The position numbers and the translations under genes were made by a program. From assembly GCA_002011125.2 (NCBI GenBank), contig MTMF02000009.1, positions 1,208,989 through 1,272,988 of the forward strand: DNA of 64,000 nt, written 5' to 3'. This document shows positions 1,266 to 27,948 of this stretch, one piece after another (position 1 is the stretch's first letter; the number at the start of each line of letters is the position of its first letter). This DNA comes from Candidatus Hydrothermarchaeum profundi (GTDB taxonomy: Archaea > Hydrothermarchaeota > Hydrothermarchaeia > Hydrothermarchaeales > Hydrothermarchaeaceae). The notes beneath the pieces were generated by a model, which was given only the letters and a program-made list of their open reading frames with translations, made no database searches and had not been told where the DNA came from.

Positions 1266-2396
1266 TTATTTAAAACTTTTTTGTAAAAAAGGAAGAAAGG
1301 GACTTGACAAAGAATACTTTGACTTACTGGTTTCTGTAAGTTTTTTGGTTGTCCTCAAAATACATGATTTGGGTTTCCATTTTTCATTTTGATCCATACT
1401 TGTCACTAAGGCCTTTTTTATTTTTCTTGTCTCAAGACCGAATTTTATGAGTGAAGTTACTACTCCTCCATCTTGTGAGTTTTTAAGAATTTCCTGCATT
1501 GTTGAACGTGCTGAATAAATCTTCTTTGCATCACTGTTTGTATAAAATTTTGTAATTAACTGGATCTCATCGCATCCAAAAGCAAGATTAGCCTTAGGGC
1601 ATATTATGAAACATGCTCCACATATTTTTTTATGGCATTCCCCCTTTATCCTAGGAAGTTCTCCTTCAAATTCAAAAGCTTGTGTTGGGCAGATGGAAGC
1701 ACAAGCTCCACATTTTATACAAATATTTCGTGAAATTACGAAAAAATCTAATACATAGCAGTTTTGATTAACCGTTAATTCATAAATTTCCTTCTTTTTT
1801 ATGTCAGAGAAGTTATTATAAAAAATCGGAAGTCCTTCCAGATGTTTATTCATCTCTTTGATTGCAGATTCTCTCTTTTTTATATCCATTTTTCTAATCC
1901 TATCTAACTGTTTCTTATCAACTTCAGAAACTTCTATGTATCCTCTGCGAATAGCTTCCAATACAAAACTTGACCCTTTTTCAGAGCGTGTTATTAAGGT
2001 TGACCATCCTGTTGGAGAACCCATTGAACCCACAGAGATATCAGAAAAGTTAGAACTAAAATCTGAGCAAATTCTACAGCCTTCATGTACCAATTTTCTG
2101 AGTTCATATATCTCAAGGTCTATTCTTTCGTCTCCAAAAAATAATTCTATCGAGTTATTTTCAATTGTCATTTTAGTAAGACAGTTTATTTCTCTTACTT
2201 CTTCAATTAATTTCTTCAAATATTTGTACTCTATATTTTCCTTACAGAACAGACCTATTGTTATATCTATATCTTTAAACCAGCTTAAACTTTGGAATGC
2301 AACTGAATCCGTGCTATCTTCTTTGAGATTATATTGATAAAAGCTCTGAATTTTCCTGATAGCTTGTATATGGCAGGGGAGTCCAACAAATAACAT
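1266..2396 (-). CDS. FrhB-family F420-linked iron-sulfur protein with permuted or truncated domains
   Basis: Related to the beta subunit of F420-reducing hydrogenases/dehydrogenases, which carry two 4Fe-4S clusters and flavin. The usual order is 4Fe-4S, FrhB_N, FrhB_C. Here the protein starts inside FrhB_C (residues 1-155, 'VGLPCHIQAIRK', 'EGCRICSDFSSNFSDISVGSMG'). Two clusters follow (C226, C229, C232, C236 and C254, C259, C262, C266), then FrhB_N ('SQDGGVVTSLIKFGL', residues 307-320), ending just after 'SKYSLSSP'. That end is the point where FrhB_C would normally continue. An in-frame stop lies close upstream of the ATG, so the frame cannot be extended. It may be a remnant of a tandem FrhB protein, or a real circular permutation. 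The CxxCxxCxxxCP motifs are intact. Confidence 0.6.
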   Translation of the reverse strand: MLFVGLPCHIQAIRKIQSFYQYNLKEDSTDSVAFQSLSWFKDIDITIGLFCKENIEYKYLKKLIEEVREINCLTKMTIENNSIELFFGDERIDLEIYELRKLVHEGCRICSDFSSNFSDISVGSMGSPTGWSTLITRSEKGSSFVLEAIRRGYIEVSEVDKKQLDRIRKMDIKKRESAIKEMNKHLEGLPIFYNNFSDIKKKEIYELTVNQNCYVLDFFVISRNICIKCGACASICPTQAFEFEGELPRIKGECHKKICGACFIICPKANLAFGCDEIQLITKFYTNSDAKKIYSARSTMQEILKNSQDGGVVTSLIKFGLETRKIKKALVTSMDQNEKWKPKSCILRTTKKLTETSKSKYSLSSPFLPFLQKSFK

Positions 2397-2513: not shown

Positions 2514-3905
2514 ATGAAGGTTACATTGATTAATCCTATGATATCTCGGAAAGAACTAAGGTGGGATATTGAGGGATCTTACCCTCCATTAGGGCTTTGT
2601 TATATAGCTTCTGTATTAGAGGAAAAAGGTCATAAGGTAAACATAATAGATGCGGAATGCCTCCATTTATCTGGAAAAGAACTTGAGGCGGAATTAAAGA
2701 GACAAAGTCCTGATATTGTAGGTATCACTTCAGTTACACCAAAATATGAGAGATTTGTTGAAACGATTAAAGTAGTAGAAAAAATAGATAGAGAGATACC
2801 TATTGTACTAGGGGGGCCCCATGCTACTCAAGTTCCAATAGAAACAATGCAAAGCTTGAGTGAAGTAGACTTTTTGGTAAGAGATGAAGGCGAGCATACT
2901 ATGGCAGAGTTGGTGCATGCCATTGAAAAAGATATTCCTTTTAATGAAATAAAAGGGTTGGTCTACAGGAAAAATGGAAAGATAAAATGTAATGAGCGAA
3001 GACCGTTTATAGAAAATCTCGATGAACTTCCGTTCCCTGCAAGACATTTGATTCCAGATCTTAAAAGATATAAACTACCTTTTAGATATAAGAGACTTCC
3101 CGTTACTACTATGATAACTAGTAGAGGATGTCCGTTTGGTTGTTTATTTTGTGATAGGATTTTCGGGAAAAAATATAGGATGCATTCTGCAGATTACGTT
3201 ATTGAAGAAATCGAGCACCTTATTGAACGATATAAAATTAGGGAAATTCATTTCGTCGATGATATGTTTCTTCTAGATCATAAAAGGACTGAAGAAATAT
3301 GCAAAAAGATAATAGATAGAGGTATTGATATCTCATGGTCTTGTAATGGAAGGATTAATACGATGAGCAAAGAACACGCTAAATTAATAAAAAAAGCAGG
3401 ATGTTGGTATGTGAGTTTTGGAATTGAAAGTGGGAATCAAAGGATTTTGAATTTTATTAGGAAAGGCACTACTTTATCCCAAATTAAAAAAGTTGTAGGT
3501 TGGACGCATGAGGCTGGGATTTGGACTAAAGGATATTTTATGATAGGGCATCCAACTGATGATGAAGAAAGTATTAGGGATACAATAGAATTTGCAAAAT
3601 CATTGCCGCTAGATTCTGTCCAATTTAGTATAACGGTACCTTATCCAGGGACAGAATTATATGAAATTGCTCCAAATTATGGTCATTTTGAATATCAAAA
3701 CTATTCTAAGATGTCAGGGCATTCAAATGAACCTGTATTTGTTCCAAATGGTTTAACAAAGGATTTTTTAATAGAAATTCAAAAAAAAGCTTATAAAGAA
3801 TTTTATTTAAGGCCCTCATATATCCTAAGAAATATTCTTAAAATACGAGATTTGACTTCTCTTAAAAAATACTTAGAGAGAGGGCTTACTTATATTAAGG
3901 CATAA
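2514..3905 (+). CDS. B12-binding-type radical SAM protein
   Basis: About 463 residues in the two-domain layout of the cobalamin-binding radical SAM family. An N-terminal Rossmann-like B12-binding domain (about 1-150, 'PPLGLCYIASVLEEKGHKVNIIDAE', 'IVLGGPHATQVP') is followed by the radical SAM core with C206, C210 and C213 in 'SRGCPFGCLFC'. I see no canonical DxHxxG cobalamin-ligand motif. A GTG at 2505 is in frame, but the ATG at 2514 is preceded by AGAGTGAT and is preferred. Family members methylate or rearrange unactivated carbons; the substrate here is unknown, with a lipid or sugar suggested by the neighbours. First gene of a tight co-directional run to 9596. The C-terminal 'KEFYLRPSYILRNILKIRDLTSL' resembles that of the radical SAM protein at 13413-14864. 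Confidence 0.85.
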   Translation: MKVTLINPMISRKELRWDIEGSYPPLGLCYIASVLEEKGHKVNIIDAECLHLSGKELEAELKRQSPDIVGITSVTPKYERFVETIKVVEKIDREIPIVLGGPHATQVPIETMQSLSEVDFLVRDEGEHTMAELVHAIEKDIPFNEIKGLVYRKNGKIKCNERRPFIENLDELPFPARHLIPDLKRYKLPFRYKRLPVTTMITSRGCPFGCLFCDRIFGKKYRMHSADYVIEEIEHLIERYKIREIHFVDDMFLLDHKRTEEICKKIIDRGIDISWSCNGRINTMSKEHAKLIKKAGCWYVSFGIESGNQRILNFIRKGTTLSQIKKVVGWTHEAGIWTKGYFMIGHPTDDEESIRDTIEFAKSLPLDSVQFSITVPYPGTELYEIAPNYGHFEYQNYSKMSGHSNEPVFVPNGLTKDFLIEIQKKAYKEFYLRPSYILRNILKIRDLTSLKKYLERGLTYIKA

Positions 3906-3922
3906 ATCAAAAAAGGTCTTTT

Positions 3923-4822
3923 ATGTTAGGGATCACAATAACTTTTTTGTTCTATTTTTTAACAGCTCTTTTTGTAAATATTATTGCTTTGCTCGTTCTA
4001 TCGTTTAGATTTCAAATAATAATGAATTCTCTAAACGAAAGACTCTCCCTTCTGAATTCATTTAATTCTCTTTGCTTTGTACAATTTACAAGTTATCTCA
4101 CTCCATTCAGAAGTGGTTCTGTTATAACAAGACCCTTAGCTATAAAGTTGCTTTCGGGGAATCCTATAAGAAAATCAGTAGTGCCTTCACTGTTCGAGCA
4201 ACTTTATGATCTGGGCTGGCAAATGTTGATACTGCCTTTTCTTTTACTAGTTGCAGGTGAAAAAAAACTACTCAATAATGCAATATTTGAGATTACTATT
4301 CTCTTATTGATGATTATAATATTTTCTTTTATCCTCAAGGATTATGAAAGTTATATTGAATTTATTTGGAAACTGAAAAATATTTTTCCAAATTTTATTA
4401 AAAGAAAAGTTATAAAGATCGGGGTAACTAAAAAAAATATAAAAAATATGATTAAAGAAATTTCTATATTTACGTCAAATAAGAATTTAATAATTAGAAT
4501 TTCAATTCTTACGCTTGTGTTAATTATCATTTTACCATTTATTGTACAATTAGCAGGCTCAATGTATTCACTAAAAATTTCTTATCAAAAATCTTTTCTA
4601 ATTTACTGGATATCAATGATAATCGGAAGACTATCAGGCATCCCTGGCGGCTTTGGGTCAAGAGATGTAACAATGATAGGTCTGTTAAATCTTTATTCTA
4701 TTGATTCAATTTTAGCAGTTAAAATCACTTTAGTGTATAGAATAATAGCTATGTTGCCTCATATAGTAGTAGGCGGATTTTTATCCTTATATTTCGGAAA
4801 AAAAATATATTCCCGTGTTTAA
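3923..4822 (+). CDS. UPF0104 / flippase-like multi-TM protein
   Basis: A 299-residue integral membrane protein with about 7-8 hydrophobic segments from residue 3 onward. It shows the pattern of the lysylphosphatidylglycerol-synthase TM / UPF0104 family: 'QFTSYLTPFRSGSVITRPLAIKLLSG' near the second helix and 'IGRLSGIPGGFGSRDVTMIGLL' in the C-terminal half. Archaeal members sit in glycosylation and lipid loci; some are proposed to act on dolichol-linked sugars, but the exact activity is not established. It starts 17 bp after the radical SAM gene with AGGT just upstream and ends 16 bp before the next start, so it is probably co-transcribed. Confidence 0.75.
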   Translation: MLGITITFLFYFLTALFVNIIALLVLSFRFQIIMNSLNERLSLLNSFNSLCFVQFTSYLTPFRSGSVITRPLAIKLLSGNPIRKSVVPSLFEQLYDLGWQMLILPFLLLVAGEKKLLNNAIFEITILLLMIIIFSFILKDYESYIEFIWKLKNIFPNFIKRKVIKIGVTKKNIKNMIKEISIFTSNKNLIIRISILTLVLIIILPFIVQLAGSMYSLKISYQKSFLIYWISMIIGRLSGIPGGFGSRDVTMIGLLNLYSIDSILAVKITLVYRIIAMLPHIVVGGFLSLYFGKKIYSRV

Positions 4823-4826
4823 CTTC

Positions 4827-4834
4827 AAGGTGAT
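4827..4834 (+). promoter_or_regulatory. Ribosome binding site deciding the 4839 start
   Basis: AAGGTGAT lies 4 nt before the ATG at 4839. It matches the archaeal anti-Shine-Dalgarno and argues against the in-frame GTG at 4815. Confidence 0.6.
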
Positions 4835-4838
4835 ACTA

Positions 4839-6314
4839 ATGCATAGAAAAGAGTTTTATTCTTCTCAGATTAAGAAATTTTTTCCAAAACTACTAACCCT
4901 CCAAGATATTAGAAAAAACTCAGATACCTATGGATGTTTTGATCTTCCTTATTGGGAGGGCGAAATAGATTTCCCCAATGCGAGATGGCAAGAAGCTGTA
5001 GCGGCTATATCTTGGTTATATCTAAAAAAAAAAGATCGGATATTAGGAAAAAGAATAGAAGGTGGAATTTCCTTTTGGAAATCTCTACAAAATAAAGATG
5101 GGTCATTTCCAGAATATAATAAGAGAGATAGAAGTTTTTCTGCAACAGCTTTTTCTTCGTTAGCTGTTGCGTTAGCAATAAGACTAACTAATAACAACGA
5201 AGAGGAATGGCTCGACGCTTTATATAAAGCCGGTAAATGGTTGGCAAAGAATAACGAGCATATATACCTGAATCAACAGGCAGCAGCTTCATTAGCTCTT
5301 TTATATATATATTATCTTACTAAAGAGGAAAAATTTCTAGATGAATCGGAAAAAAAATTAAATGAAATTCTTAGAAATCAAACTGAGGATGGGTATTATC
5401 CAGAGAAAAAAGGCCTAGATTTAAGCTATTCTTCTCTTACTTTGGCTTTATTAGGAAACTATTATGTTAATGTAAAAGATCGCAGGATAATTAATTCAGC
5501 AAAAAAATTTATCAGTTTTGCGTCACATTTTATTTTTCCTGACGGTTCTTTCGGAGGCTACTACAATACAAGGACGGTAGGATGGTTAATTTTAGATGGT
5601 TTCGAAATTTTTTCTAAAAGTATTCCTCTGTCTAATTTTTTATTAGAAAAAATAACTAAGGCACATGTTGAACAAATTTGCAGGATAGAACATCTGCCGG
5701 ATAATCGCCACTTATGTACTGATTTAATTTGGTTATGCTTGGCGTATGATCACTGTAAAAATAAATTCCAAATGCCAGTTGTGGACTTTCCTGAGAGAAA
5801 GATTTTCAACGCAAGTAATATTAAAATAATTAGGAATAGAAACTACATCATTATTACTGATATGTCAGAAGAAAGACTGTTTTCACTCTGGACTACTAAT
5901 GGTTTTAGGATATTTGTTAATCCATTTGAAAGAGAGGAAAAAAAAGTTTCGCCGCTTATAAGGAGGTTCGGTGTCCACAAGTTAAGAAGATTTAAATACC
6001 TCAAATTCAAAAAATTTACAACACCCTTAAAGATTAGTATGCTGTCTAACGAGAGGGTAGTATTAACAGGTGATAAAATAATCTTAGCAACAAGACCAAA
6101 CGAACTCTCGATTTCAGGGAATAACTTTAATATGTTGAGATTATCAAGTAAAGATGGTTATATTGTTATTAAAATCGAAGATGGTGATTTGAGTTATCTT
6201 GATAGAGGAGTAATATCAGTTTCTGATTCCATTTTTTATGGTGATAAAGCTTTACATTTCATTGAAGTATTCTCGGTAGATAAAAAAAATATTAACTTTC
6301 ATTTGATAATATGA
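4839..6314 (+). CDS. Alpha/alpha-toroid protein with QW-like repeats, function unknown
   Basis: About 491 residues. The N-terminal two thirds is helical, with three glycine-aspartate motifs of the prenyltransferase / squalene-cyclase toroid type: 'SLQNKDGSFPEYN', 'NQTEDGYYPEKKG' and 'IFPDGSFGGYY'. These resemble QW motifs (Q-x2-DG-S/Y-F/Y). The cyclase catalytic signatures DxDD and DCTAE are not visible, so cyclisation is not supported. The last 150 residues are beta-rich; a toroid plus beta-sandwich layout also occurs in polysaccharide lyases such as heparinase II/III, but I see no lyase motif and no signal peptide. The gene overlaps the next GT2 start by 4 bp, so the product likely works in the same pathway as the radical SAM protein and the glycosyltransferases. 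Confidence 0.55.
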   Translation: MHRKEFYSSQIKKFFPKLLTLQDIRKNSDTYGCFDLPYWEGEIDFPNARWQEAVAAISWLYLKKKDRILGKRIEGGISFWKSLQNKDGSFPEYNKRDRSFSATAFSSLAVALAIRLTNNNEEEWLDALYKAGKWLAKNNEHIYLNQQAAASLALLYIYYLTKEEKFLDESEKKLNEILRNQTEDGYYPEKKGLDLSYSSLTLALLGNYYVNVKDRRIINSAKKFISFASHFIFPDGSFGGYYNTRTVGWLILDGFEIFSKSIPLSNFLLEKITKAHVEQICRIEHLPDNRHLCTDLIWLCLAYDHCKNKFQMPVVDFPERKIFNASNIKIIRNRNYIIITDMSEERLFSLWTTNGFRIFVNPFEREEKKVSPLIRRFGVHKLRRFKYLKFKKFTTPLKISMLSNERVVLTGDKIILATRPNELSISGNNFNMLRLSSKDGYIVIKIEDGDLSYLDRGVISVSDSIFYGDKALHFIEVFSVDKKNINFHLII

Positions 6315-7300
6315 TTTCAGAGTACCCGTTTATTTCAATAGTTATAATTACTCAAAATGAAGAAAAAAATATTAAAGACTGTCTAGATTCTATTATGGCT
6401 ATAGATTATCCCAAAGAAAGATATGAGATAATCATAGTGGATAGTTCTTCTGATAAAACTGCCGAAATAGCTAATAAATATAGTGTAAAAATTTTAAAAA
6501 CCAGTCCTAATAATTTTGCTTTTTCACGAAATATAGGAATTAACGAAGCTAAGGGAGAATTTGTAGCTTTTACTGATGCTGATTGTATTGTGCCTAGAGA
6601 TTGGCTAAAAACCTTAGTAAAAAATTTTGATAGTAATACGGCTGGAGTTGGAGGAAATGCATTTCCACCTAAGAATTCAACTTACTTTGGAAAATGTGTT
6701 GCAAGTCTAGGATTTCCTGCAGGTGGTTCTATTGGTCTAGATAGCCTCGTCAAAAAAATAGATAGTGGGGTTAGTGCACTATCTACATGCAATGCTATCT
6801 TTAAAAAAGATGTGATTTGTAAAATTGGAGGGTTTAATGAAAAATTAAATTATGGTGGAGAAGATTTTGATTTATCCCGAAGGCTGAGAAGTAAGGGGTA
6901 TATTTTAAAATATGAGCCAAAATCGTATGTTTACCATAAGCCTAGAGAAACCATTGCCGAATTTTTAAAATGGAATTATCGTAGGGGTAAAGCCAAATAT
7001 AAATACAATAAATTAAATTCTTTATTTGTTTTCTTAAATCCTTTTTCAATAACTTGGATTGGCTTTTTATTTTTTCTGAGTTTGGTTAATATAAGATACT
7101 CTCTTTTTTTTATACTCTGCATATGGCTCTTTACAATATTAGTGATGTTTTTAGGTACTAAGAGGTATAGGATGTTAATAAGCCGTAGAAAAAAAAGTGG
7201 TATAGATCTACCCTCTATTTTTATTACTGTAGCATTTTTATTTTATCTAAGACAAATGTTTTTAAACTTAGGCCAAATGAGGGAGATGCTTTCTAAATGA
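6311..7300 (+). CDS. GT2 family glycosyltransferase with C-terminal membrane segments
   Basis: A GT-A fold inverting transferase: 'PFISIVIITQNEEKNIKDCLDSI' at the N-terminus, DAD at residues 89-91 for nucleotide-sugar/metal binding, and 'GGEDFDLSRRLRSKGY' carrying the ED acceptor-site motif. Two to three hydrophobic helices (about 240-329) anchor it to the membrane. The paralogue at 12428-13294 shares the unusual 'LGFPAGGS' motif in the middle. Start and stop overlap the neighbours by 4 bp on both sides (ATGA junctions), implying translational coupling with the toroid gene and the nitroreductase fusion. Confidence 0.88.
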   Translation: MISEYPFISIVIITQNEEKNIKDCLDSIMAIDYPKERYEIIIVDSSSDKTAEIANKYSVKILKTSPNNFAFSRNIGINEAKGEFVAFTDADCIVPRDWLKTLVKNFDSNTAGVGGNAFPPKNSTYFGKCVASLGFPAGGSIGLDSLVKKIDSGVSALSTCNAIFKKDVICKIGGFNEKLNYGGEDFDLSRRLRSKGYILKYEPKSYVYHKPRETIAEFLKWNYRRGKAKYKYNKLNSLFVFLNPFSITWIGFLFFLSLVNIRYSLFFILCIWLFTILVMFLGTKRYRMLISRRKKSGIDLPSIFITVAFLFYLRQMFLNLGQMREMLSK

Positions 7301-8667
7301 CGAAGTTATTCCTAGAGGATGTATTAAAAAAAAGGAGAAGCATTAGAAAATTCAAAAAAGAAAAAATAGATTTAGCACTGATTCGGGAGGTAGTGGAAGC
7401 TGGGAGGTGGGCTCCCTCTGCATGCAATATGCAACATTGGGAATTTGTAGTAATAACTGATGAGAAAAAAATCAAAAATATATACGAGAAAGCTGGAGGA
7501 CAAAATATAATAAAAAATGCACCAGCGATTATTGCTGTTTTTTTCCATAAAGAATTAAACTCACAAAATTACGCTAATATCCAATCAGCATCAGCAGCAG
7601 TGCAAAATATGCTATTAAAAGCTTATGAGTTGGGTTTGGGAACATGTTGGGTCTGTGGTTTTGGAGATAAAAAGGAAATTAAAAAATTATTAAAGGCACC
7701 TGAAAATTTTGAACTTTTATGCTTAGTTTTGATAGGAAAGCCTTTGGAAGAACCTTACCCTCCCCCCTCAAGAAGACCATTATCGAAAATAATCTATTTA
7801 AATGAGTTCTCTCCTACTCCTCCTAAATTTCCCACGGGGATAAGAACTTCTTTATGGGATATTAGTGAAGTTTTGGAGTATCAAAAATACTCCTCTAGGG
7901 CAGGTGGACTGGGGAAAGATTATGAAAAATATGACGCTGAAGAAATAGAGGCGATTAGAGAGACTCTAAAAAAAATCTTACCGCGAGATAAATTAAGGAT
8001 CTTGTCTCTTTACTCCTATGATGGGACAATATTAAAAAAAATTATGAAAATCTTTGAAAACCATGAAATGTTTGATCTTGAGTTAAGTAAGGAAGCTTGT
8101 CTTTATATTGAAAGTAAAGTGGGGTATATGAATTTTTCAGTAGGAGCCCTCAAATTGCCATTTAAAAAAGAATCCTTTGATATTATAGTAGCGATTTTTT
8201 CTTTAGAAAAGATACCACAATGGGAAAAACTTATAGAAGACTCTTACTTTTTTTTAAAAAGAAACGGTAAAATGATAATATTCTTTAAAAATAGCATTTC
8301 ATTATATGGATTGATATATCTTGGGATTGAAAAAATATTAAAAGTTAGAGATGTTCAGAGTTTTTATAGCTCTGGGCCATTTGAACCTATTAATTCAATA
8401 AAACTGAAAAAAATTTTGGTAAAATATGGTTTTTATCTAAAAACGAAAGGATTCTTTTTGGTACCTCCAGATGTATTGATCTATTCAAAAAAAATAGATA
8501 GATATTTAAAACGTCATGGAAAAGAGATATCTCATTTTAAGTTCTTATTGAAATATATAGCAAGTATATTGGTATATTTATTTAGAATAACGAAAAGAGT
8601 TAGGTTAACGGAAATATCATCCACTATGCTGATAATAGCAGAAAAAATAGATAATAGATATTTATGA
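7297..8667 (+). CDS. Nitroreductase-methyltransferase-like fusion protein
   Basis: Residues 1-165 are a complete FMN-dependent nitroreductase-family domain: 'RRSIRKFKKEKID', 'AGRWAPSACNMQHWEFVVI', 'SAAVQNMLLKAYELGLGTCWV' and the end motif 'RRPLSKIIYLNEFS'. Residues about 180-456 look like a class I SAM methyltransferase: 'ALKLPFKKESFDIIVAIFSLEKIPQWEKLIEDSYFFLKRNGKMIIFF' fits motifs post-I to III. Motif I, however, reads 'ILSLYSYDGTILKKI' with no GxGxG, so SAM binding is doubtful. Members of the first family reduce nitro groups, quinones or C=C bonds or dehalogenate. The fusion is unusual and lies between two GT2 genes, with 4-bp overlaps at both ends, suggesting tailoring of a glycolipid or lipid carrier. 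Confidence 0.75.
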   Translation: MTKLFLEDVLKKRRSIRKFKKEKIDLALIREVVEAGRWAPSACNMQHWEFVVITDEKKIKNIYEKAGGQNIIKNAPAIIAVFFHKELNSQNYANIQSASAAVQNMLLKAYELGLGTCWVCGFGDKKEIKKLLKAPENFELLCLVLIGKPLEEPYPPPSRRPLSKIIYLNEFSPTPPKFPTGIRTSLWDISEVLEYQKYSSRAGGLGKDYEKYDAEEIEAIRETLKKILPRDKLRILSLYSYDGTILKKIMKIFENHEMFDLELSKEACLYIESKVGYMNFSVGALKLPFKKESFDIIVAIFSLEKIPQWEKLIEDSYFFLKRNGKMIIFFKNSISLYGLIYLGIEKILKVRDVQSFYSSGPFEPINSIKLKKILVKYGFYLKTKGFFLVPPDVLIYSKKIDRYLKRHGKEISHFKFLLKYIASILVYLFRITKRVRLTEISSTMLIIAEKIDNRYL

Positions 8668-9596
8668 AACTAGTTGTAACTATTCCGGCTTTTAATGAAG
8701 AAAAAACGATTGGAAAAGTAATTAGAAATATTCCTAGAGATTGTTGTGATGAAGTAGAAGTTCTGGTTATCGATGACGGTTCTACTGATAAAACTGTAGA
8801 ACGAGCCAGAGAAAATGGTGCTGATAAGATAGTGACCTTTAAAAGAAATTTAGGACTTGCTACGGCTTTTAGGAAAGGAATAGAAACGGCTTTAGAGATG
8901 AAAGCGGATATAATAGTAAATATAGATGCTGATGGGCAATACGATCCTAACGAGATTCCTGTGATCATACAGCCCATACTAGAAGGAAAAGCGGATATAG
9001 TTTTAGGTTCTCGGTTCTTAGGTAATATTGAATACATGCCTATCCAAAAGAAACTGGGAAATAAACTTGCAACAAAAATAACTAGCTTCCTTGTGGGTAT
9101 ACCCATATCAGATGCACAAACTGGGTTCAGAGCCTTCACAAAAAATGCAGCAATGAAGATTCATGTTTTGTCAAAATATACCTATGTACAGGAAACTATA
9201 ATACAAGCTGTTTATAAAAATTTAAAAATACTTGAAGTTCCTTGTAGTTTCAGAAAAAGAGAAGGAAAATCTAGGCTAATCTCAAATATCTTCACATATG
9301 CAATAAAAGCGGGACTTGTTATATTTAAGACCTATTTAGACTATAAACCTTTAAAAGTTTTTTTGTTTCTTGGGGGGGCGCTGTTTCTAGTGGGGCTACT
9401 ATTTGGAGCTAGGGTATTAATAGATTTCTTGCAAACCGGGGGAGTGCACTTTCTGCCTTCGGCAATACTTACAGCTATTTTCCTAATTATAGGATTTCAG
9501 ATAGTTGTTTTGGGATTAATTGCGGCAATGATCGGAACAAATCGGAGGATAATGGAAGATATACTCTATTACCAGAAAAAATCGAGGTATAAATGA
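8664..9596 (+). CDS. Polyprenyl-phosphate GT2 (dolichyl-phosphate sugar synthase-like)
   Basis: The catalytic GT2 domain spans residues 1-220: 'MKLVVTIPAFNEEKTIGKVI', 'VIDDGSTDKT', DAD at 88-90 in 'NIDADGQYDPNEIP', and 'VLGSRF' followed by 'DAQTGFRAF', typical of DPM/DPG synthase-like enzymes that load a sugar on polyprenyl phosphate. Two C-terminal hydrophobic helices (about 229-255 and 263-297) follow. Last gene of the overlapped run. A 124-bp segment near its 3' end (9223-9346) is duplicated exactly at 12051-12174, where a decayed second copy of the gene end lies. Confidence 0.88.
   Translation: MKLVVTIPAFNEEKTIGKVIRNIPRDCCDEVEVLVIDDGSTDKTVERARENGADKIVTFKRNLGLATAFRKGIETALEMKADIIVNIDADGQYDPNEIPVIIQPILEGKADIVLGSRFLGNIEYMPIQKKLGNKLATKITSFLVGIPISDAQTGFRAFTKNAAMKIHVLSKYTYVQETIIQAVYKNLKILEVPCSFRKREGKSRLISNIFTYAIKAGLVIFKTYLDYKPLKVFLFLGGALFLVGLLFGARVLIDFLQTGGVHFLPSAILTAIFLIIGFQIVVLGLIAAMIGTNRRIMEDILYYQKKSRYK
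9223..9346 (+). repeat. Copy 1 of a 124-bp exact direct repeat
   Basis: Identical to 12051-12174. It lies inside the intact GT2 gene, and the similarity continues with mismatches to the gene end. The two copies bracket the IS element and the radical SAM gene. Confidence 0.9.
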
Positions 9597-10627: not shown

Positions 10628-12031
10628 ATGAAGGTTTTGCTTATTGTGCCAAACGCAATAGGGAAATATTACAAACCAACTTCCCCACATGTTGGGATCG
10701 CCTATCTGGCAGCTTTTTTGATGAAAAATGAGATTGCTGTAGAAGTTATTGATCTGAGACTAGACTCAAAAATTGAAAAACTATTTGATAAAATTCAAAA
10801 TTTCTCTCCGGATCTTATAGGTATTACTTGTGCCAGTAGAGAATACGATATAGCCTATGGTATTATTAGCCAAATCAAAGATAATTATAGCACCCCTGTC
10901 GTAATCGGTGGGCCTCATCCCTCTGTAATCCAAGAAAAGATATTACTAGAATCCAAGGCGGATTATGCTGTTATAGGTGAGGGAGAATATACGTTATTGG
11001 ATTTGGTTACTGGGAAGGATCTTGAGAATATAAATGGGTTGGTTTGGCGGGATAATGGAAAAATCGTGAAAAATCCGAAGAGAGAACTAATAGAAGATTT
11101 AGATTCGCTCCCCTTCCCAGCATACGAAAAATTTGAGCTTGAAAAATATCTTGATAATAAGATTCCAATAGTTTCATCTAGAGGATGTCCCTTTAGATGT
11201 ACGTATTGTTCCATAAAACTAATAATGGGCAATAGATTTAGGGCAAGAAGTCCAGAGAATGTAGTGGATGAGATAGAGTATTGGCATAATAAGGGGTATA
11301 ATTATTTCACCTTTACTGACGACAACTTCACATGCGACATAAATAGAGCTATTAGAATATGTGAGTTAATCATTGAAAGAGGATTAAAAATTAAATGGGA
11401 TTTGAGAAATGGAATAAGAGTAAATCGTGTAAATAAGGAACTCTTAGAAAAAATGAAAAGAGCTGGCTGCTTTTATCTTGCCTATGGCATTGAATCCGGG
11501 CATCCCGAAGTATTAAAAAACATAAAAAAAGGTATCACTACGAAACAGGTTAGAAATGCCGTAAAATTAGCCAAGGATGTTGGAATAAAGGTGGGCGGTT
11601 TCTTTTTAATTGGTGCCCCAGGTGACACCTTTGAAAGATTTAGGTACACCCTTAATTTCGCAAAATCATTAAGACTTAATGAAGCTATGTTTTATAATAT
11701 AGTTCCTTACCCGGGTACAGAGTTACAAAAATGGGTTTCAAAAAATGCAAAATTCCTGTATCCCCCAGAGATTTACTTAAACGAAATATCCTATGATGCT
11801 CATGAACCTGTATTTGTAACTGATGATTTTTCCAAAGAAGAAAGAAGACTAGCTCATGAATTGGGTGAAGTGTATACTATGAAATTATTCTTTAAAAGCG
11901 AGTTTGGGACAGTTTTAGGACCGATCTTCTACGGTTTCTGGAAAAACAAGTTAATTAGAAAATATGGTTTAAATGCTGGTCTTAGATTCTGGGCATTTAC
12001 GAGAAAACTAAAGACGAGAATTAAGTCGTGA
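10628..12031 (+). CDS. B12-binding-type radical SAM protein
   Basis: A 467-residue member of the same family as 2514-3905 and 13413-14864. The N-terminal domain ('MKVLLIVPN', 'VIGGPHPSVIQEKILLESKADYAVIGEGE') is followed by the radical SAM core with C187, C191 and C194 in 'SRGCPFRCTYC'; 'GIESGHPEVLKNIKKGIT' and 'FFLIGAPGDTFERFRYTLNFAKSL' are typical core motifs. It differs enough from the other two copies to act on a different substrate. It lies alone between the IS remnant and a decayed GT2 end. A GT2 gene (12428-13294) follows on the opposite strand. Confidence 0.85.
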   Translation: MKVLLIVPNAIGKYYKPTSPHVGIAYLAAFLMKNEIAVEVIDLRLDSKIEKLFDKIQNFSPDLIGITCASREYDIAYGIISQIKDNYSTPVVIGGPHPSVIQEKILLESKADYAVIGEGEYTLLDLVTGKDLENINGLVWRDNGKIVKNPKRELIEDLDSLPFPAYEKFELEKYLDNKIPIVSSRGCPFRCTYCSIKLIMGNRFRARSPENVVDEIEYWHNKGYNYFTFTDDNFTCDINRAIRICELIIERGLKIKWDLRNGIRVNRVNKELLEKMKRAGCFYLAYGIESGHPEVLKNIKKGITTKQVRNAVKLAKDVGIKVGGFFLIGAPGDTFERFRYTLNFAKSLRLNEAMFYNIVPYPGTELQKWVSKNAKFLYPPEIYLNEISYDAHEPVFVTDDFSKEERRLAHELGEVYTMKLFFKSEFGTVLGPIFYGFWKNKLIRKYGLNAGLRFWAFTRKLKTRIKS

Positions 12032-12427: not shown

Positions 12428-13294
12428 TCAGTATTTATCCTTTATGTATTCCTCAATATATCCAATTTGTTGAAGAATAAAACTTAAGAATAATAGTACT
12501 AGGATAAGCGGGAATTTTGGATCTCTGTGAAATTTTTTTATTATGTTTTTCGTTGACCAAAATCTAAGTTTTACAAAATCTCCGACATAACCGACTTTCT
12601 TTTTAAAATAATAGTTGCTTCTTCCTCTTGTCAACTGCCATTTGACGAAAGATGAAAAGCTCTCTCTAGGCTCATGTATAACAATTGCATTTGGCAGATA
12701 TTTTATTTTGAATCCTTGTTTTGACAGTCTATAGGAAAACTCAGAGTCTTCTCCACCCGGGGTCTTAAATGTTTCGTCAAAAAATCCAATTTTTAGAAAT
12801 AAATCTTTCCTCACTGCGCAGTTACATGTAGTTATATGATCTGTGAACCCTTCTTTGGAGACATGCCACATGTTTTCAAAACCGACAGATCCACCAGCAG
12901 GGAATCCTAACGCTGAAATAGAGTCACCGAGAAAGTTAGATTTAGGAATTTTCACGTGACCTTGAACAGCATGGATATTTTGATCATCAAAGGCTTTTGC
13001 GATATTTTTCAACCAGTCTTTTTTAGCTACGCAGTCAGAGTCTGTGAAAGCAATGATTTGTCCATTAGCTTCTCTAATTCCGACGTTCCTTGCACCAGCA
13101 GGACCTTTTTTGTTTTTTAGCTTCACTACTTTGGCATATTCTTTTGCAATCTCAGAGGTTGGATCCGAGGAGTTGTCATCAATTACGATAATCTCATAAT
13201 CATAAAAATCCTGAGTTTTTAGGGATTCCAATAAATTATGTATTTTAGTAGAAGCATTGTGAGCTGGAATTACAACAGAAATATATGGTTTCAT
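12428..13294 (-). CDS. GT2 family glycosyltransferase
   Basis: The start at 13294 gives the family-typical N-terminus 'MKPYISVVIPAHNASTKIHNLL' and has AAGTGA shortly upstream; an in-frame ATG at 13372 would add 26 residues with no homology features. The GT-A domain has 'VIDDNSSDPTSEIA', 'GPAGARNVGIREANG', DSD near residue 86 and 'GGEDSEFSYRLSKQGF'. One C-terminal hydrophobic helix ('FPLILVLLFLSFILQQIGYI') suggests membrane association. It shares 'LGFPAGGS' and overall layout with the GT2 at 6311. Downstream of, and co-directional with, the radical SAM gene at 13413-14864. Confidence 0.88.
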   Translation of the reverse strand: MKPYISVVIPAHNASTKIHNLLESLKTQDFYDYEIIVIDDNSSDPTSEIAKEYAKVVKLKNKKGPAGARNVGIREANGQIIAFTDSDCVAKKDWLKNIAKAFDDQNIHAVQGHVKIPKSNFLGDSISALGFPAGGSVGFENMWHVSKEGFTDHITTCNCAVRKDLFLKIGFFDETFKTPGGEDSEFSYRLSKQGFKIKYLPNAIVIHEPRESFSSFVKWQLTRGRSNYYFKKKVGYVGDFVKLRFWSTKNIIKKFHRDPKFPLILVLLFLSFILQQIGYIEEYIKDKY

Positions 13295-13412
13295 ACAGAG
13301 TTCACTTATTTTTGACATTTGACAAATAATGTCCATCTCTTGAATGTATCCCCATCCCATAAGAAATCGCATTTATTTTCCATTTTTCTTTTTTAAAAGA
13401 GAAACTAGAATT

Positions 13413-14936: not shown

Positions 14937-16160
14937 ATGGAAGCACTTAAAATTTGTCTTCTAACTTCTGAGTACCCCCCCAATATCGTTTCTGGACCTG
15001 GAAGATATACAGAGAACTTGGCGATAGGACTCAGAGATAAAGGCTACAGAGTAACTGTTGTTACACCTTTAACTAATGGGAGTAAAGAATATGAGGAATT
15101 AAATGGAATTGAAGTGTATAGAATAAAGATTCCAAGATCATCTACATTGGAAAAAATAATACCAAATATTTTAGATAGAAGAGTTTTTTTCGGAATAAAA
15201 GCCAAGAATTTTTTGACTAAAGAAAGAGTAGATGAATATGACTTGATTCATGTTACAAATTTTACTGAATCTTTTGTTTTAACTAATGAAATCTTTAAAA
15301 AAATTCCGACTGTAGTCTCTGTAAATGAGTATTATTATTTAAAAAGTACATGGAATATCCTTAAATTTCCATATAAGACAATGGACTTGCCTTTACGATA
15401 CTTACAACATAATATTTTAAGGCAGATAAATACCCGAGTGTTGAATAAAGCTACAAAAATTTTGGCGAATTCAAAATATACTGCAAAAGCAATAGAATCC
15501 TGCGGAATACCAGAAGATAAAATACAAACAGTGTATAGAGGAATTAATACTAAAAAGTTCGATGTAAAACCAACTGAGGATAAATATACAAATCACTCTA
15601 TTTTATTTGTCGGAGGTAACATGGAAAGAAAAGGAGGAAAATATTTAATTCAAGCTGCGCCAAGTATTCTAAGAGATTTCCCTGACTCAACATTCATACT
15701 TATAGGTAGAACTTCTTGGATGTACCGACAACTTCTAAATAGATATATTAAAAAATATAATCTAAGAAAAAAAGCTAAAATTTTAGATTATGTTGCCCCA
15801 AATGAATTACGACATTTTTATGCTCGAGCTAATGTTTTTGTAATGCCAGCTATAGTGGAAGCTCTTGGGCAAGTTTTTATGGAGGCAATGATGAGTAAAA
15901 CTCCCGTAATTGGTTCTAATGTGGGAGGGATACCAGAAAACATATCAGATGGCGAAACAGGGTTTTTAGTAAAACCCAAGGATCCCACGGATATCAAAGA
16001 TAAAGTATTCAAAGTATTTGAAGACCCTACTATGGCAAAAAAAATGGGGGAGATGGGCCATAGGCGAGTTCTCAGGTTGTTCTCGCTAGAAAAAATGATA
16101 AATGAAACAATTAGGGTATATCAGGATGCGATCACTATATTTAAAGGGAATTTAAGATGA
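14937..16160 (+). CDS. GT4 family glycosyltransferase
   Basis: A GT-B fold retaining transferase of 407 residues. N-terminal acceptor domain: 'ICLLTSEYPPNIVSGPGRYTENLAIGL'. C-terminal donor domain: 'ILFVGGNMERKGGKYLIQAAPSIL', 'NVFVMPAIVEALGQVFMEAMMSKTPVIGSNVGGIPENI', which holds the E-x7-E motif that binds the nucleotide sugar. A strong AAGGAG precedes the ATG. It overlaps the next gene by 4 bp (ATGA), so the pair is co-translated. Probably adds a sugar on the cytoplasmic face of the lipid carrier. Confidence 0.9.
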   Translation: MEALKICLLTSEYPPNIVSGPGRYTENLAIGLRDKGYRVTVVTPLTNGSKEYEELNGIEVYRIKIPRSSTLEKIIPNILDRRVFFGIKAKNFLTKERVDEYDLIHVTNFTESFVLTNEIFKKIPTVVSVNEYYYLKSTWNILKFPYKTMDLPLRYLQHNILRQINTRVLNKATKILANSKYTAKAIESCGIPEDKIQTVYRGINTKKFDVKPTEDKYTNHSILFVGGNMERKGGKYLIQAAPSILRDFPDSTFILIGRTSWMYRQLLNRYIKKYNLRKKAKILDYVAPNELRHFYARANVFVMPAIVEALGQVFMEAMMSKTPVIGSNVGGIPENISDGETGFLVKPKDPTDIKDKVFKVFEDPTMAKKMGEMGHRRVLRLFSLEKMINETIRVYQDAITIFKGNLR

Positions 16161-17734
16161 AACAGAATAATTTTCTCTTATTTCTTCTACTTCTAGCTTC
16201 TATTATCTATATTATTTATTACCCCCGTCATAGTATTTTTCCCGATGAGTCAAAATATCTCCTGCTTGGAAAAGAAATCACGGATGGCGAATATTCCGAA
16301 GATTTTTTTCATAGAATGCCATTGATACCATTATCAGAGGCTTTTTTTTACATTCTAGGATTAAATGTTGATGCAATAAAATTTCTGATACCCTTAATCT
16401 TCATATACTTAGCTATACTAACCACTTACCTTCTTGCAAAAGAAATATGTGATAAAAATGTCGCCCAGATATCAGCCATTATATTGGTAGTTTTCCCATT
16501 CTTCTGGAGATGGGGAACTAAAGTACTGGCGGATATTCCTTTATTAGTTATAACAAATTCTCTTCTTTACTTTTTTATTAGGATTAGGGAAAACAATAGA
16601 TTTTTTTTGCATTTCGGCATTGTGATGGGATTAGGATCTATTACGAAACTCTCTTTTTTCATTTTACCTCTTCTACTCTATTCTTACATTTTTATGAGGA
16701 GGAGAGACCTACTTAAAGCAAGAGAATTTTGGATAGGATCTGGGTTTGCGATTTTAATATTCCTTTTTTCTTATATGTTCATACATTTTATTACAGTAGA
16801 AATTGAAACGTCGCAATTTAATAAAATTGGAGAACACTTAATAGATCCAAAACAAAATGTAATTTTTCAAATAATAACGGGAAGATTTTCAAGTGCTAAA
16901 TATCTCGCTAAGTTAATCTTATTCCCTTTGATTATCTTCACCCCTTTTGGCATCTTCGCATTATACAAAAAGGGGGAGAAATTGCTGATTTTTTATTTCT
17001 TCCTTTTTATTGCTCTATTTTTTTTAATTTGGCATATAAGGATAAGAACATTTTCTCCTCTGTATTCCCTCTTCTCTCTATTTGTAGCCCAGGGATATTT
17101 TGAACTAAAGAAAAAACATTTCATAAAAATTCTTTTTATTATCCTAGCAGTAATTTCTTTTTTGGATGCAATCTTTCTCTTAAACTTGGACTCTGAGTCG
17201 AGGTGGGGCGCTGATATACTTGCGAAAGAAATAACTCATCTTGACGGTAATATAGCTAGTGAGTATCTTCCGGATTATCTCAAGGCAAAAACATCGAAGG
17301 AAGTCATCCCCTTTAAAATATACTATGAGGTAGATGGTGAACGTATACCACGAGAAGAAGTTCAGTCTGGTTTTAAGAATGCGAGCCATCCTAGGCATGA
17401 AGAGTTTAGGAGGATATACAATAACCCGGAATACAAGCGGTATCCTTATTTAGAAGACGAGTGGGTTAGAGAAAATGGCGTCGATTATATAGTCCTCTCA
17501 ATTTACGAGGAATGGGAGAGAGAACCTACGGGTGATCATTTCCATCCAAAACTTGGACCCTTTGAGATAAAATTTGTTAAGCGGCCATATAGCAATGGAA
17601 GAGTTCCACCAGATTACGATTTTAGATCTGAATTATATTATAGGCTTGAAGACAGCGAGAAGTATGAAAAAATTGGAGAGGTATATAGAGGAAGCCAGAG
17701 GATTTTCATCATTTACGAGGTGACTTCTCGATAA
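16157..17734 (+). CDS. PMT/ArnT-like membrane glycosyltransferase (GT39/GT83-like)
   Basis: 525 residues: about nine transmembrane segments up to residue 345, then a soluble C-terminal domain. The first extracytoplasmic loop holds 'HSIFPDESKYLLLGKEI', the acidic DE motif used by polyprenyl-phosphate-sugar-dependent GT-C enzymes, and 'VFPFFWRWGTKVLADIPLLVITNSLLYFFI' is typical of the PMT_2 family. It likely transfers a sugar from a polyprenyl-phosphate donor outside the membrane. The 3' end overlaps the convergent GT4 gene by 22 bp. Confidence 0.8.
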   Translation: MKQNNFLLFLLLLASIIYIIYYPRHSIFPDESKYLLLGKEITDGEYSEDFFHRMPLIPLSEAFFYILGLNVDAIKFLIPLIFIYLAILTTYLLAKEICDKNVAQISAIILVVFPFFWRWGTKVLADIPLLVITNSLLYFFIRIRENNRFFLHFGIVMGLGSITKLSFFILPLLLYSYIFMRRRDLLKAREFWIGSGFAILIFLFSYMFIHFITVEIETSQFNKIGEHLIDPKQNVIFQIITGRFSSAKYLAKLILFPLIIFTPFGIFALYKKGEKLLIFYFFLFIALFFLIWHIRIRTFSPLYSLFSLFVAQGYFELKKKHFIKILFIILAVISFLDAIFLLNLDSESRWGADILAKEITHLDGNIASEYLPDYLKAKTSKEVIPFKIYYEVDGERIPREEVQSGFKNASHPRHEEFRRIYNNPEYKRYPYLEDEWVRENGVDYIVLSIYEEWEREPTGDHFHPKLGPFEIKFVKRPYSNGRVPPDYDFRSELYYRLEDSEKYEKIGEVYRGSQRIFIIYEVTSR

Positions 17735-25421: not shown

Positions 25422-26492
25422 ATGAAATTGGCCATCCTCACTTCTCGATTTCCTCTTAAGGATATTGGAGGGGCAGAGCTCGCGGCTCATTATATTGGAA
25501 AATATGCTTCCATAGAGAACGAGGTATTCATATTAACCAGAAGGCAATTGAAGCCATTAAGAGACGGCTATAGGGTTAGGATGGTAAGATATATCGGAGT
25601 CCCAGCAATCATGAGGTATATATCCACGGTCGTAACTCTTACCATTGAAACAGTGAGGATTAAACCTCAAGCCATCTTCGCTGAGATGTTATACTCTGCC
25701 GGTATGGCGGCAGTGCTATCAGGAAAATTGCTAAGAGTACCAGTTTTTATTCACCCAGGTGGCGAAATTTACTGGACAAGTAAATGGAATTTTTTTGTAC
25801 GATATGTTTTAACCAATGCCACCTTAGTTCTAGCTTTGACCGAGCATATGAAAAAAGAAATTCTAAGATTTGCTCCCCATGCCAACGTAGAAGTATTGCC
25901 AAACGGTGTCGACTTAAAAACCATAGAGATTATTGAAGGTGCAACCGTAAAGCACCCTTGCATACTTTACGCCGGTAGGATGGAAAAAATAAAGGGAGTA
26001 GAGTACCTCATAGGCGCATTTTCAGCTGTAAAGGAGAAAATACCCACTGCGCACCTCTATATAATAGGCTCCGGCCTACTGGAAAGAAACCTCAAGAAGC
26101 TGGCAGATAGGCAAGGTATAGCCAATGTTCATTTTCTAGGCATGCTAGAAAACAGGTTAGTACTCTCATATATGAAATCCTGCGATGTCTTCGTCTTACC
26201 TAGTCTGACTGAGGGATTCCCCTTGGTTTTGGTTGAAGCTATGGCATGTGGAGCTCCTATTGTGGCTACGAATGTAAAAGGTATAAATGAAATTATCGAA
26301 GATGGGAAAAATGGCTTCCTCGTTGGGGCCAAGGATGAAGATGCATTAGCGTCAAAAATAATCACTATATTAACCGATAGCAATCTGAAAAAAGATATTT
26401 CTAAGAACAACGTTGAAAAATCTAGAGAATATGATTGGAAGACAATAACAAAGAAACTAATGGAGAAATTTTCGGAATATGCGACTAAGTAA
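25422..26492 (+). CDS. GT4 family glycosyltransferase
   Basis: 356 residues beginning 'MKLAILTSRFPLKDIGGAELAAHYIGKYA'; an 18-codon upstream extension to 25368 has no homology features and would precede the TATA box. Donor-domain motifs: 'ILYAGRMEKIKGVEYLIGAFSAV', 'HLYIIGSGLLERNLKKL', 'CDVFVLPSLTEGFPLVLVEAMACGAPIVATNVKGINEII' with E-x7-E. First gene of a four-gene operon (GT4, PMT-like, GT2, DUF2304) with overlaps or 2-bp spacing. Confidence 0.9.
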   Translation: MKLAILTSRFPLKDIGGAELAAHYIGKYASIENEVFILTRRQLKPLRDGYRVRMVRYIGVPAIMRYISTVVTLTIETVRIKPQAIFAEMLYSAGMAAVLSGKLLRVPVFIHPGGEIYWTSKWNFFVRYVLTNATLVLALTEHMKKEILRFAPHANVEVLPNGVDLKTIEIIEGATVKHPCILYAGRMEKIKGVEYLIGAFSAVKEKIPTAHLYIIGSGLLERNLKKLADRQGIANVHFLGMLENRLVLSYMKSCDVFVLPSLTEGFPLVLVEAMACGAPIVATNVKGINEIIEDGKNGFLVGAKDEDALASKIITILTDSNLKKDISKNNVEKSREYDWKTITKKLMEKFSEYATK

Positions 26493-27948
26493 ATACGACA
26501 AATTTGCTATATTAGTAGCAGTAGTATACTCCCTTATCATATTCTTTATTTCACCCATTCAACTCCCTATTGTAGATGATGCTGGATATGCAGATGTCGC
26601 GCAGAGCATCTTTCTTAGACATTCTTTCCAGACCAATTTTGAAACAGATGTGATAACTGCTCCAGGATTGCCCTTCCTTTTAGCCGGAGCAATGTTTCTC
26701 TTTGGGAATTTATTTATTAAGTCTTTTTTAGTCATCATATCTTTTTCCACAATTATTTCTGCCTATTTACTTGTAAAAGAACTTAAAAATGAGAGAATAG
26801 CGTTCTTTTCATCTTTATTCATGATTTTTATACCGGAGTTCATATGGGCGTCTGGAGTACTACTGTCTGATGTACCTTTCCTACCTTTTCTATTCATGGC
26901 GATGTATTTTTACTTAAAGACACTAAAAGGAGGTAAAAATCTCTCGGCCGCTCTTTGTGGGATTTTCACAGGCGTTTCTATTCTAATAAGATATGTTGGA
27001 TTAGTGTTGCCGTTCATATTCCTCATTCACTACTTGACAGTGAGGCATAAGATGAGGGTATCCTTTACGCAAGTACTCCTCTTCATTCTATTACTCCTGT
27101 CCTCTCTAGCTCCGTGGACTTTAAGGGAGATATCATTTGGCACTTATCCCGGTGCAAGCCATATTGAACGCTTTGAAAAAAGCGAGGTATATGGCGTTTT
27201 TGATATTGAAGTATACTCCGTAAACTATCCTTCTGGGAGCATACGGGAAAGGGGAATTGATATAAACATTAAGACTCCCGTAGAGGCTTTTCTGACTACA
27301 AGAATATTCGGTATAATGATTCTCTATTTGACTCCTGTAGTTGTTATAGTATTTGTAGTTAGACTTTTTAAGATGAAGTATTCATGGGAAGATAAGCTTT
27401 TATTGCTCTGGATTGGAATTTTTATATTGTTTCATATTTTCGTTCCTAACGATTTTTCTGTAAGGTATATATTGCCATTCTCACTTCCGCTTATGGTCAT
27501 ATTTAGTGAGGCAATGCTGGAAATAATACACCGAAAAATAATCATAGCACTTGTTTTAGGAGTTTTTATTATATCATCAAGTACGCTAATGTTCCATGAT
27601 TATAATAATAGGTGGAAAAAAGCAGATACTACGGTTTACATGGAAGCTGGAAAATGGTTGAAAGAAAATACTGAGGAGACGCAAGTAATTTACGGCTTCG
27701 GTGTATCCGAGGGAGCTATACCTTTCTATGCTAATAGGAAATACATTTCACTAGGAGATCCAACTACAACGGAGGATATAATGAGGATAAAAAAAGTCAA
27801 TCCTGAAATATTGCTGGTAGGAAAAATGGAACCGATTTTTCACAGGAAGTTCAATGAAACTAAAGTGATTAACCAGCTTGGAGACTATCATCTTGTGAAA
27901 TCCTTTGAAGATAACAATTTTTATGTCCATATCTATGTGAGGAGGTAG
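26479..27948 (+). CDS. PMT/ArnT-like membrane glycosyltransferase
   Basis: 489 residues, about 10-11 membrane helices to residue 375 and a short soluble tail. 'IQLPIVDDAGYADVAQSIFLRHSF' in the first external loop carries the conserved acidic pair of GT-C enzymes, and 'FFSSLFMIFIPEFIWASGVLLSDVPFLPFLFMAMYFYLKTL' is typical of the PMT_2 family. Expected to use a polyprenyl-phosphate sugar donor, plausibly made by the GT2 encoded next. Overlaps the upstream GT4 gene by 14 bp. Confidence 0.8.
   Translation: MRLSKYDKFAILVAVVYSLIIFFISPIQLPIVDDAGYADVAQSIFLRHSFQTNFETDVITAPGLPFLLAGAMFLFGNLFIKSFLVIISFSTIISAYLLVKELKNERIAFFSSLFMIFIPEFIWASGVLLSDVPFLPFLFMAMYFYLKTLKGGKNLSAALCGIFTGVSILIRYVGLVLPFIFLIHYLTVRHKMRVSFTQVLLFILLLLSSLAPWTLREISFGTYPGASHIERFEKSEVYGVFDIEVYSVNYPSGSIRERGIDINIKTPVEAFLTTRIFGIMILYLTPVVVIVFVVRLFKMKYSWEDKLLLLWIGIFILFHIFVPNDFSVRYILPFSLPLMVIFSEAMLEIIHRKIIIALVLGVFIISSSTLMFHDYNNRWKKADTTVYMEAGKWLKENTEETQVIYGFGVSEGAIPFYANRKYISLGDPTTTEDIMRIKKVNPEILLVGKMEPIFHRKFNETKVINQLGDYHLVKSFEDNNFYVHIYVRR
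27939..27946 (+). promoter_or_regulatory. Strong Shine-Dalgarno fixing a TTG start
   Basis: GAGGAGGT sits 4 nt before TTG 27951, inside the end of the previous gene. It supports initiation at a TTG codon. Confidence 0.7.

Follow-up and report, generated by a model that had tools for sequence, protein, structure and literature searches.

A six-gene archaeal operon that may make and tailor a lipid-linked sugar, with a toroid protein of a family that has no curated model

In the genome of Candidatus Hydrothermarchaeum profundi, positions 2514 to 9596 of the window (the whole 64,000-nucleotide stretch of contig MTMF02000009.1 that was analyzed) carry six tightly packed open reading frames (ORFs), all on the plus strand, which encode a B12-binding radical S-adenosylmethionine (SAM) protein, a UPF0104 membrane protein, an (alpha/alpha) toroid, two family 2 glycosyltransferases (GT2s, here GTa and GTb) and a nitroreductase-methyltransferase (NTR-MT) fusion. 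We propose, with a probability of roughly 0.55, that this archaeal operon builds and modifies a lipid-linked sugar destined for the cell surface. An unusual polyprenyl- or lipid-linked product had already been suggested by a first-pass annotation of this DNA, and it is the best-supported reading, given the enzyme type of GTb, the GT2 and UPF0104 genes that flank the toroid, and the tendency of the fusion to accompany the toroid.

RESULTS

Layout of the operon

The radical SAM gene (2514..3905, 463 amino acids [aa] from its ATG, with a GTG at 2505 also possible) is of the HpnJ/BchE-like subgroup and is followed, after a gap of 17 nucleotides (nt), by the gene of an LPG_synthase_TM/UPF0104/TIGR00374 membrane protein, a putative lipid-sugar flippase (3923..4822). 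The toroid gene (4839..6314) lies behind a 16-nt gap when read from ATG 4839 or overlaps its neighbor by 8 nt when read from GTG 4815; the ATG is preferred because the homologues begin there. GTa (6311..7300), the fusion of an FMN-type nitroreductase with a class-I-methyltransferase-like domain (7297..8667) and GTb (8664..9596) each start in a 4-nt ATGA overlap, at 6311, 7297 and 8664, respectively. This spacing suggests that the six genes form a single transcript. The ORFs and junctions bear out the six co-directional genes with 16- to 17-nt gaps or ATGA overlaps of the first-pass annotation, and the domain matches agree with its UPF0104 protein, two GT2s and NTR-MT fusion.

The toroid belongs to a family without a curated model

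No Pfam or NCBIfam family was matched by the toroid above its cut-off, and the toroid family, which has no model in either collection, is undescribed as far as we found. In the AlphaFold2 model, whose domain layout is numbered from GTG 4815, a helical toroid (about residues 10 to 315) precedes beta strands (328 to 423) and a chain end of low confidence; the pLDDT is mostly above 90 for residues 10 to 240 and low past about 370. The protein has no transmembrane segment and no evident signal peptide. Chondroitinase, GH127, cellobiose 2-epimerase, PL33 and chondroitin AC lyase take the top Foldseek ranks (E values of 1e-5 to 1e-4), these carbohydrate-active matches having TM-scores of about 0.4 to 0.46, and drimenyl diphosphate synthases rank lower (TMq of 0.36 to 0.37). 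Pectate lyase and GH127 are the commonest weak profiles in the family: Pec_lyase is weak in 21 of 44 members, and the window toroid reaches 12.7 bits with the GH127 profile, below the cut-off of 24.9. Squalene cyclase profiles weakly touch 2 of the 44 members and do not touch the window toroid. Because of the Foldseek ranking and the weak pectate lyase and GH127 profiles, we take the predicted toroid to be of carbohydrate-active type and not a terpene cyclase, the modeled likeness being at the level of fold class only.

These results replace the earlier label of a squalene-cyclase-like toroid, an identity that we rejected since motif, profile and fold rank all fail. The accompanying remarks were accurate: a motif scan of the window protein found no DxDD, not even DD, and two QW-like stretches (QNKDGSF and QTEDGYY). 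In a 44-row alignment, YGCFDxxYW, Q59, N153, E197, D202, Y205 and R253 are invariant or nearly so, and G40, C41, F42, Y46, E197, D202 and Y205 are still invariant once three short relatives are included. The tree groups the window toroid with three toroids of 336 to 344 aa from a 371-genome archaeal phylum, all without the beta domain (SH-aLRT 99). Short toroids (about 310 to 345 aa) without the C-terminal beta domain occupy two separate places in the tree; their loci are L095, L102, L115 and L134 (Aminicenantes, Omnitrophota) and L186, L188 and L203 (Nanoarchaeota-type genomes).

At least 130 relatives of the toroid exist in Bacteria and Archaea, spanning Omnitrophota, Woesearchaeota, Altiarchaeales, Borrarchaeum, Methanophagales, Cyanobacteria, Verrucomicrobia, Planctomycetes, Proteobacteria and more. 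They were recovered by a motif-guided scan (130 among 152 candidate stretches, with 80 loci kept); an earlier scan of genome contigs with the window toroid alone gave no match, and scans of viral contigs for the toroid found none. Five of the six fragments added to the scan alignment were invented variants of the N terminus of a Phyllobacterium relative, which loosened the motif to YGCFDxxYW; tblastn had found that relative on a plasmid (E value of 4e-18). A tblastn comparison with the actual window protein bore out every match of the motif scan. The scan favors the canonical toroid branch, and the window's own branch is under-sampled. Within its own phylum the toroid occurs in 1 of 23 genomes, this one only; elsewhere in archaea it was found in 16 of 371, 2 of 228, 2 of 394 (the phylum of the Methanophagales relative) and 1 of 29 genomes. 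A distant relative with a Tat-type signal is encoded on a plasmid of Streptomyces sp. NBC_00046 (L070, 11815-13770), where the neighbors, read by eye, are sugar ABC transporter and GH5-like genes; it is probably a secreted glycan-degrading cousin.

A GT2-toroid-flippase core recurs across genomes

Neighbors of the toroid were counted on the same strand, by profile, at up to 97 loci with phyla unweighted, and the counts are lower bounds because genes were called mechanically. A DPM/ArnC-like GT2 occupies the -1 position at 30 of 97 loci and an LPG_synthase_TM gene the +1 position at 31 of 94, and both counts drop to 0 to 3 beyond four genes from the toroid. NTR or NTR-MT genes lie at most four genes away at 14 of 97 loci (in Nanoarchaeota, Altiarchaeales, Rokubacteria, a Borrarchaeum-phylum genome and others); PMT_2/GT-C, asparagine-synthase-like and B12-radical-SAM genes are less frequent neighbors. 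On the Phyllobacterium plasmid the order is GT2-toroid-flippase-membrane protein, with a GT2 that matches GTb at 39% and a UPF0104 protein as the flippase; Novosphingobium sp. Chol11 likewise carries GT2, toroid and flippase genes. Among the papers searched, none was found to describe a toroid-GT2-flippase cluster. The earlier verdict of "not a standard glycan module" therefore stands insofar as the arrangement is undescribed as far as we found, but the GT2-toroid-flippase core itself proved to be widespread.

Two small genomes, both among those whose short toroids group with the window toroid, jointly encode relatives of every one of the six window genes, and most of these are clustered. The first (G397) has the NTR-MT fusion (39%), GTa (46%), the LPG protein (34%) and a B12-radical-SAM gene (30%) in one stretch and the toroid (38%) on a different contig; in the second (G090), a stretch of about 8 kb carries the toroid (42%), the radical SAM gene (40%), a homologue of GTb (44.5%) and a PMT_2 gene. 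This clustering supports a functional linkage of the six genes, and these homologues suggest a lateral transfer of the gene set.

Two further kinds of run were seen. In Woesearchaeota archaeon ARS1419 (L074, 4813-11611), a GT2, a stand-alone nitroreductase, a B12 radical SAM, a second GT2, a SPASM radical SAM and a toroid follow one another, which is nearly the same gene content as that of the window operon in another archaeon. Plasmids of Ruegeria and Sulfitobacter (L204, 8001-13609; L206, 8001-13603) carry a GTb-like GT2, a membrane protein, a GT, a methyltransferase and a UPF0104-like protein without a toroid, the membrane protein being judged GT-C-like and the UPF0104-like assignment made by eye. 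Since the GT2-flippase core occurs there on its own, these plasmids suggest that the toroid is an add-on to such systems.

The NTR-MT fusion co-occurs with the toroid

The nitroreductase domain of the fusion covers about residues 1 to 180 and the methyltransferase-like domain about 185 to 456. The former scores 118.4 bits with PF00881, over the cut-off of 23.5, and the latter matches Methyltransf_11 weakly (30.5 bits versus 21.2). The model of the fusion has a Rossmann-like strand order at low confidence, and the structure matches listed for it by Foldseek are nitroreductases only. A motif scan found no GxGxG in the fusion, and a conserved YDG stands at the place of motif I in 8 of 8 aligned fusions; because YDG replaces the glycine-rich SAM motif throughout, the earlier remark on the missing GxGxG holds for the aligned family.

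In two Woesearchaeota, the gene immediately upstream of the toroid encodes a full-length homologue of the fusion (29% and 27%). Among the 371 genomes of the Woesearchaeota phylum, the methyltransferase domain of the fusion is present in 8 and the toroid in 16, and all 8 are inside the 16 (hypergeometric P of about 1.6e-12, for genomes that are not independent); in 7 of the 8, no more than about 3 kb separates the two genes. A plain nitroreductase may replace the fusion beside the toroid in Altiarchaeales, Rokubacteria and a genome of the 228-genome phylum. By these sequence comparisons the NTR-MT fusion is a real recurrent family, and no description of it was found among the papers searched. 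The first-pass annotation would have given up the pathway if the toroid and the fusion mostly occurred without the other genes: in the searched genomes the fusion was never found without the toroid, but the fusion or the radical SAM gene was often missing where the toroid was present.

The glycosyltransferases, the flippase and the radical SAM protein

GTb is a GT2 of the DPM/AglJ/ArnC/GtrB type, with DPM synthase 5mlz (E value of 2.2e-17), ArnC and GtrB sll0501 as relatives in the PDB, and its two transmembrane segments (228-258 and 259-293) are the C-terminal pair expected of the DPM/ArnC/GtrB type. From its sequence, GTb is a probable polyprenyl-phosphate glycosyl synthase. Its identity as AglJ was rejected, since it scores 159.7 bits with TIGR04182, under the cut-off of 325. 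GTa (PF00535, E value of 5.2e-28) also has C-terminal transmembrane segments, and the closest homologue seen, 46% identical, lies beside an NTR-MT fusion (L202, 10571-11455, minus strand). The LPG_synthase_TM protein matches PF03706 (E value of 2.6e-28) and, over the cut-off of 43.2, TIGR00374 (80.1 bits); UPF0104 proteins have been predicted to act as glycosylation flippases for lipid-linked saccharides (PMC5898192).

The radical SAM protein has Radical_SAM and B12-binding domains and a CxxxCxxC motif (residues 206 to 213). An identity as HpnJ was rejected, the score with TIGR03471 (271.8 bits) being far under the cut-off of 577.6, and the BchE cut-off was missed likewise. The solved structure closest to it in sequence is AprD4 (6fd2).

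The surrounding glycan island

A glycan region extends from the operon, at its left edge, to about 42 kb of the window. The host genome, archaeal by its small-subunit rRNA, measures 2.19 Mb. Between 12428 and 42569 this island contains PMT_2 GT-C, carbamoyltransferase, UDP-sugar dehydrogenase, Polysacc_synt flippase and type I phosphodiesterase genes, together with DPM-like GT2, GT4-like and DegT-like genes read by eye. One PMT_2 enzyme of the GT-C type is a candidate acceptor-side transferase outside the operon (16157..17734, plus strand; PF13231, E value of 1.6e-14). A second PMT_2/PMT enzyme of the GT-C type (26479..27948, plus strand; PF13231, E value of 1.7e-11) is followed by a DPM-like GT2 (27951-28619). 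Just downstream of the operon are two extra B12-binding radical SAM genes and a GTa-like GT2 (10628-12031, plus strand; 12428-13372 and 13413-14864, minus strand), so that the pairing of radical SAM and GT2 is found twice within 12 kb. On the other side of the operon, an FrhB/FdhB-like ORF (1266-2396, minus strand) has its C-terminal family domain (2-161) ahead of the 4Fe-4S and N-terminal family domains (293-371); this order is the reverse of what the names imply, and the protein is possibly permuted or rearranged.

DISCUSSION

According to the proposed mechanism, GTb would transfer a sugar from a nucleotide donor to polyprenyl (dolichyl) phosphate at the cytoplasmic face. The toroid would modify the lipid-linked sugar or short glycan, by analogy most likely through an epimerization or an elimination-type reaction, while the NTR-MT fusion may add a coupled flavin redox step and probably a methylation too. 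GTa would add another sugar, the UPF0104 protein would flip the product outward, and the GT-C enzymes of the island (16157-17734 and 26479-27948) would use it; the B12 radical SAM enzyme may add a methyl group or rearrange carbon somewhere in the same product. We infer the substrate, the reaction types, the order and the individual steps from protein families and gene linkage.

In three-component systems a synthase charges polyprenyl phosphate, a flippase exports the product and a GT-C enzyme transfers it, and a cytoplasmic epimerase may act on the undecaprenyl-phosphate-linked pentose (PMC11127046). With such systems (GtrA/GtrB/Gtr*; Citrobacter ORF12-15, PMC11127046) the present one has in common a DPM/GtrB-like synthase, a putative flippase, GT-C enzymes (located here in the island) and a modifying enzyme that lacks a signal sequence. 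However, the flippase is a UPF0104 protein here and a GtrA/SMR or MATE protein there, and the place of an SDR or DprE1/E2 epimerase as modifying enzyme is taken by a toroid and an NTR-MT fusion. Unlike the three-component unit, the six-gene operon has no GT-C gene, the PMT_2 genes being in the island only. By analogy the operon would work like a three-component system, and we do not file it as a member because its GT-C lies outside the unit.

The nearest functional precedent, again by analogy, may be Agl32 of Halobacterium salinarum, an all-helical D-glucuronyl C5-epimerase whose nearest fold is of the AGE type and which works on a lipid-linked glycan prior to its export (PMC13308652). The two, compared by description only, share a helical AGE-like predicted fold and an archaeal glycosylation cluster with AglJ/AglG-type GTs, but canonical toroids add a C-terminal beta domain; in the phylum to which the Methanophagales relative belongs, the toroid profile matched only 2 of 394 genomes. 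PL8 (chondroitin AC lyase), PL33, GH127 and AGE-type epimerases share the fold class, and PL8 and GH127 also the order of toroid and then beta domain, whereas the toroid stays under all Pfam cut-offs and has residues of its own (YGCFDxxYW, E197, D202, Y205, R253). The radical SAM protein shares domain layout and CxxxCxxC with AprD4 and the B12 radical SAM enzymes of the HpnJ/BchE type, but misses the HpnJ and BchE cut-offs.

Several observations weigh against a lipid-linked sugar pathway of this form. The Foldseek TM-scores of the toroid are only about 0.45, so the likeness stays at fold class, and a GT2 or flippase was seen at only about half of the toroid loci. The window toroid sits in a divergent branch with short toroids and deviates from the family consensus at positions that include W194, Y198 and G204; therefore, its reaction may differ. 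SAM binding by the methyltransferase domain is uncertain, motif I being degenerate. Of the 23 genomes of the phylum, 16 have radical SAM relatives of similar closeness and 1 has the toroid, so the radical SAM enzyme may not belong functionally, and its gene is the weakest and loosest member of the operon.

A glycosylated membrane lipid is a rather unlikely alternative product. Here the GT2s would glycosylate a core archaeal lipid, the radical SAM enzyme would modify the isoprenoid chain, in the manner of some hopanoid enzymes, and the UPF0104 protein would flip the glycolipid, which is consistent with the best radical SAM score being for HpnJ, a hopanoid enzyme (under its cut-off), with the inclusion of the phospholipid flippase MprF in UPF0104 (PMC5898192) and with a weak score of the glucosaminyl-PG flippase model NF053789. 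However, GTb is of the DPM/ArnC/GtrB type, whose members use polyprenyl phosphate, PMT_2/GT-C partners occur near the toroid, and the occurrence of the radical SAM gene does not follow that of the toroid. That the operon makes a cyclized isoprenoid, with the toroid as a cyclase or prenyl-modifying enzyme, we regard as very improbable: the (alpha/alpha) toroid has its QW-like stretches, drimenyl diphosphate synthases do appear at lower Foldseek rank and an oxidosqualene cyclase profile is weak in 2 of 44 members, but DxDD and DD are absent, carbohydrate-active toroids rank higher and mostly with higher TM-scores, the conserved neighbors are glycosyltransferases and flippases, and the distant secreted relative lies, as judged by eye, beside genes for a sugar ABC transporter and a GH5-like protein.

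The genes might also be merely co-transcribed in a loose glycan island and serve unrelated sugar decorations, their linkage arising from general clustering and horizontal transfer. The window does lie within a large glycan region with two further B12 radical SAM genes and a GTa-like GT2 next door, gene order varies among genomes, and the toroid is patchy in archaea, at the frequencies given above. Yet the LPG_synthase_TM and GT2 genes show sharp peaks at +1 and -1, the fusion was found in toroid genomes only, and the cluster of fusion, GTa and LPG protein recurs in G397, so that we hold such unrelated decorations to be quite unlikely. Making and tailoring a lipid-linked sugar for the cell surface remains the preferred function of the operon.

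A bolder extension, which we put forward tentatively as possible but not probable, is that the toroid family represents a new cytoplasmic enzyme class that remodels polyprenyl-phosphate-linked sugars in both domains and is paired in archaea with the fusion; elimination or epimerization by the toroid might then be followed, for example, by flavin-dependent reduction and methylation. If this is true, the pair of toroid and fusion would bring to lipid carriers a sugar chemistry as yet undescribed for them. The co-occurrence of the two proteins presents a two-enzyme pair open to direct expression and assay, and culturable bacterial carriers of the toroid are at hand in Leptolyngbya, Novosphingobium and Phyllobacterium strains. 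A family without a curated model that is spread over many phyla with like GT2 and flippase neighbors points to an unrecognized common step in the biosynthesis of lipid-linked sugars.

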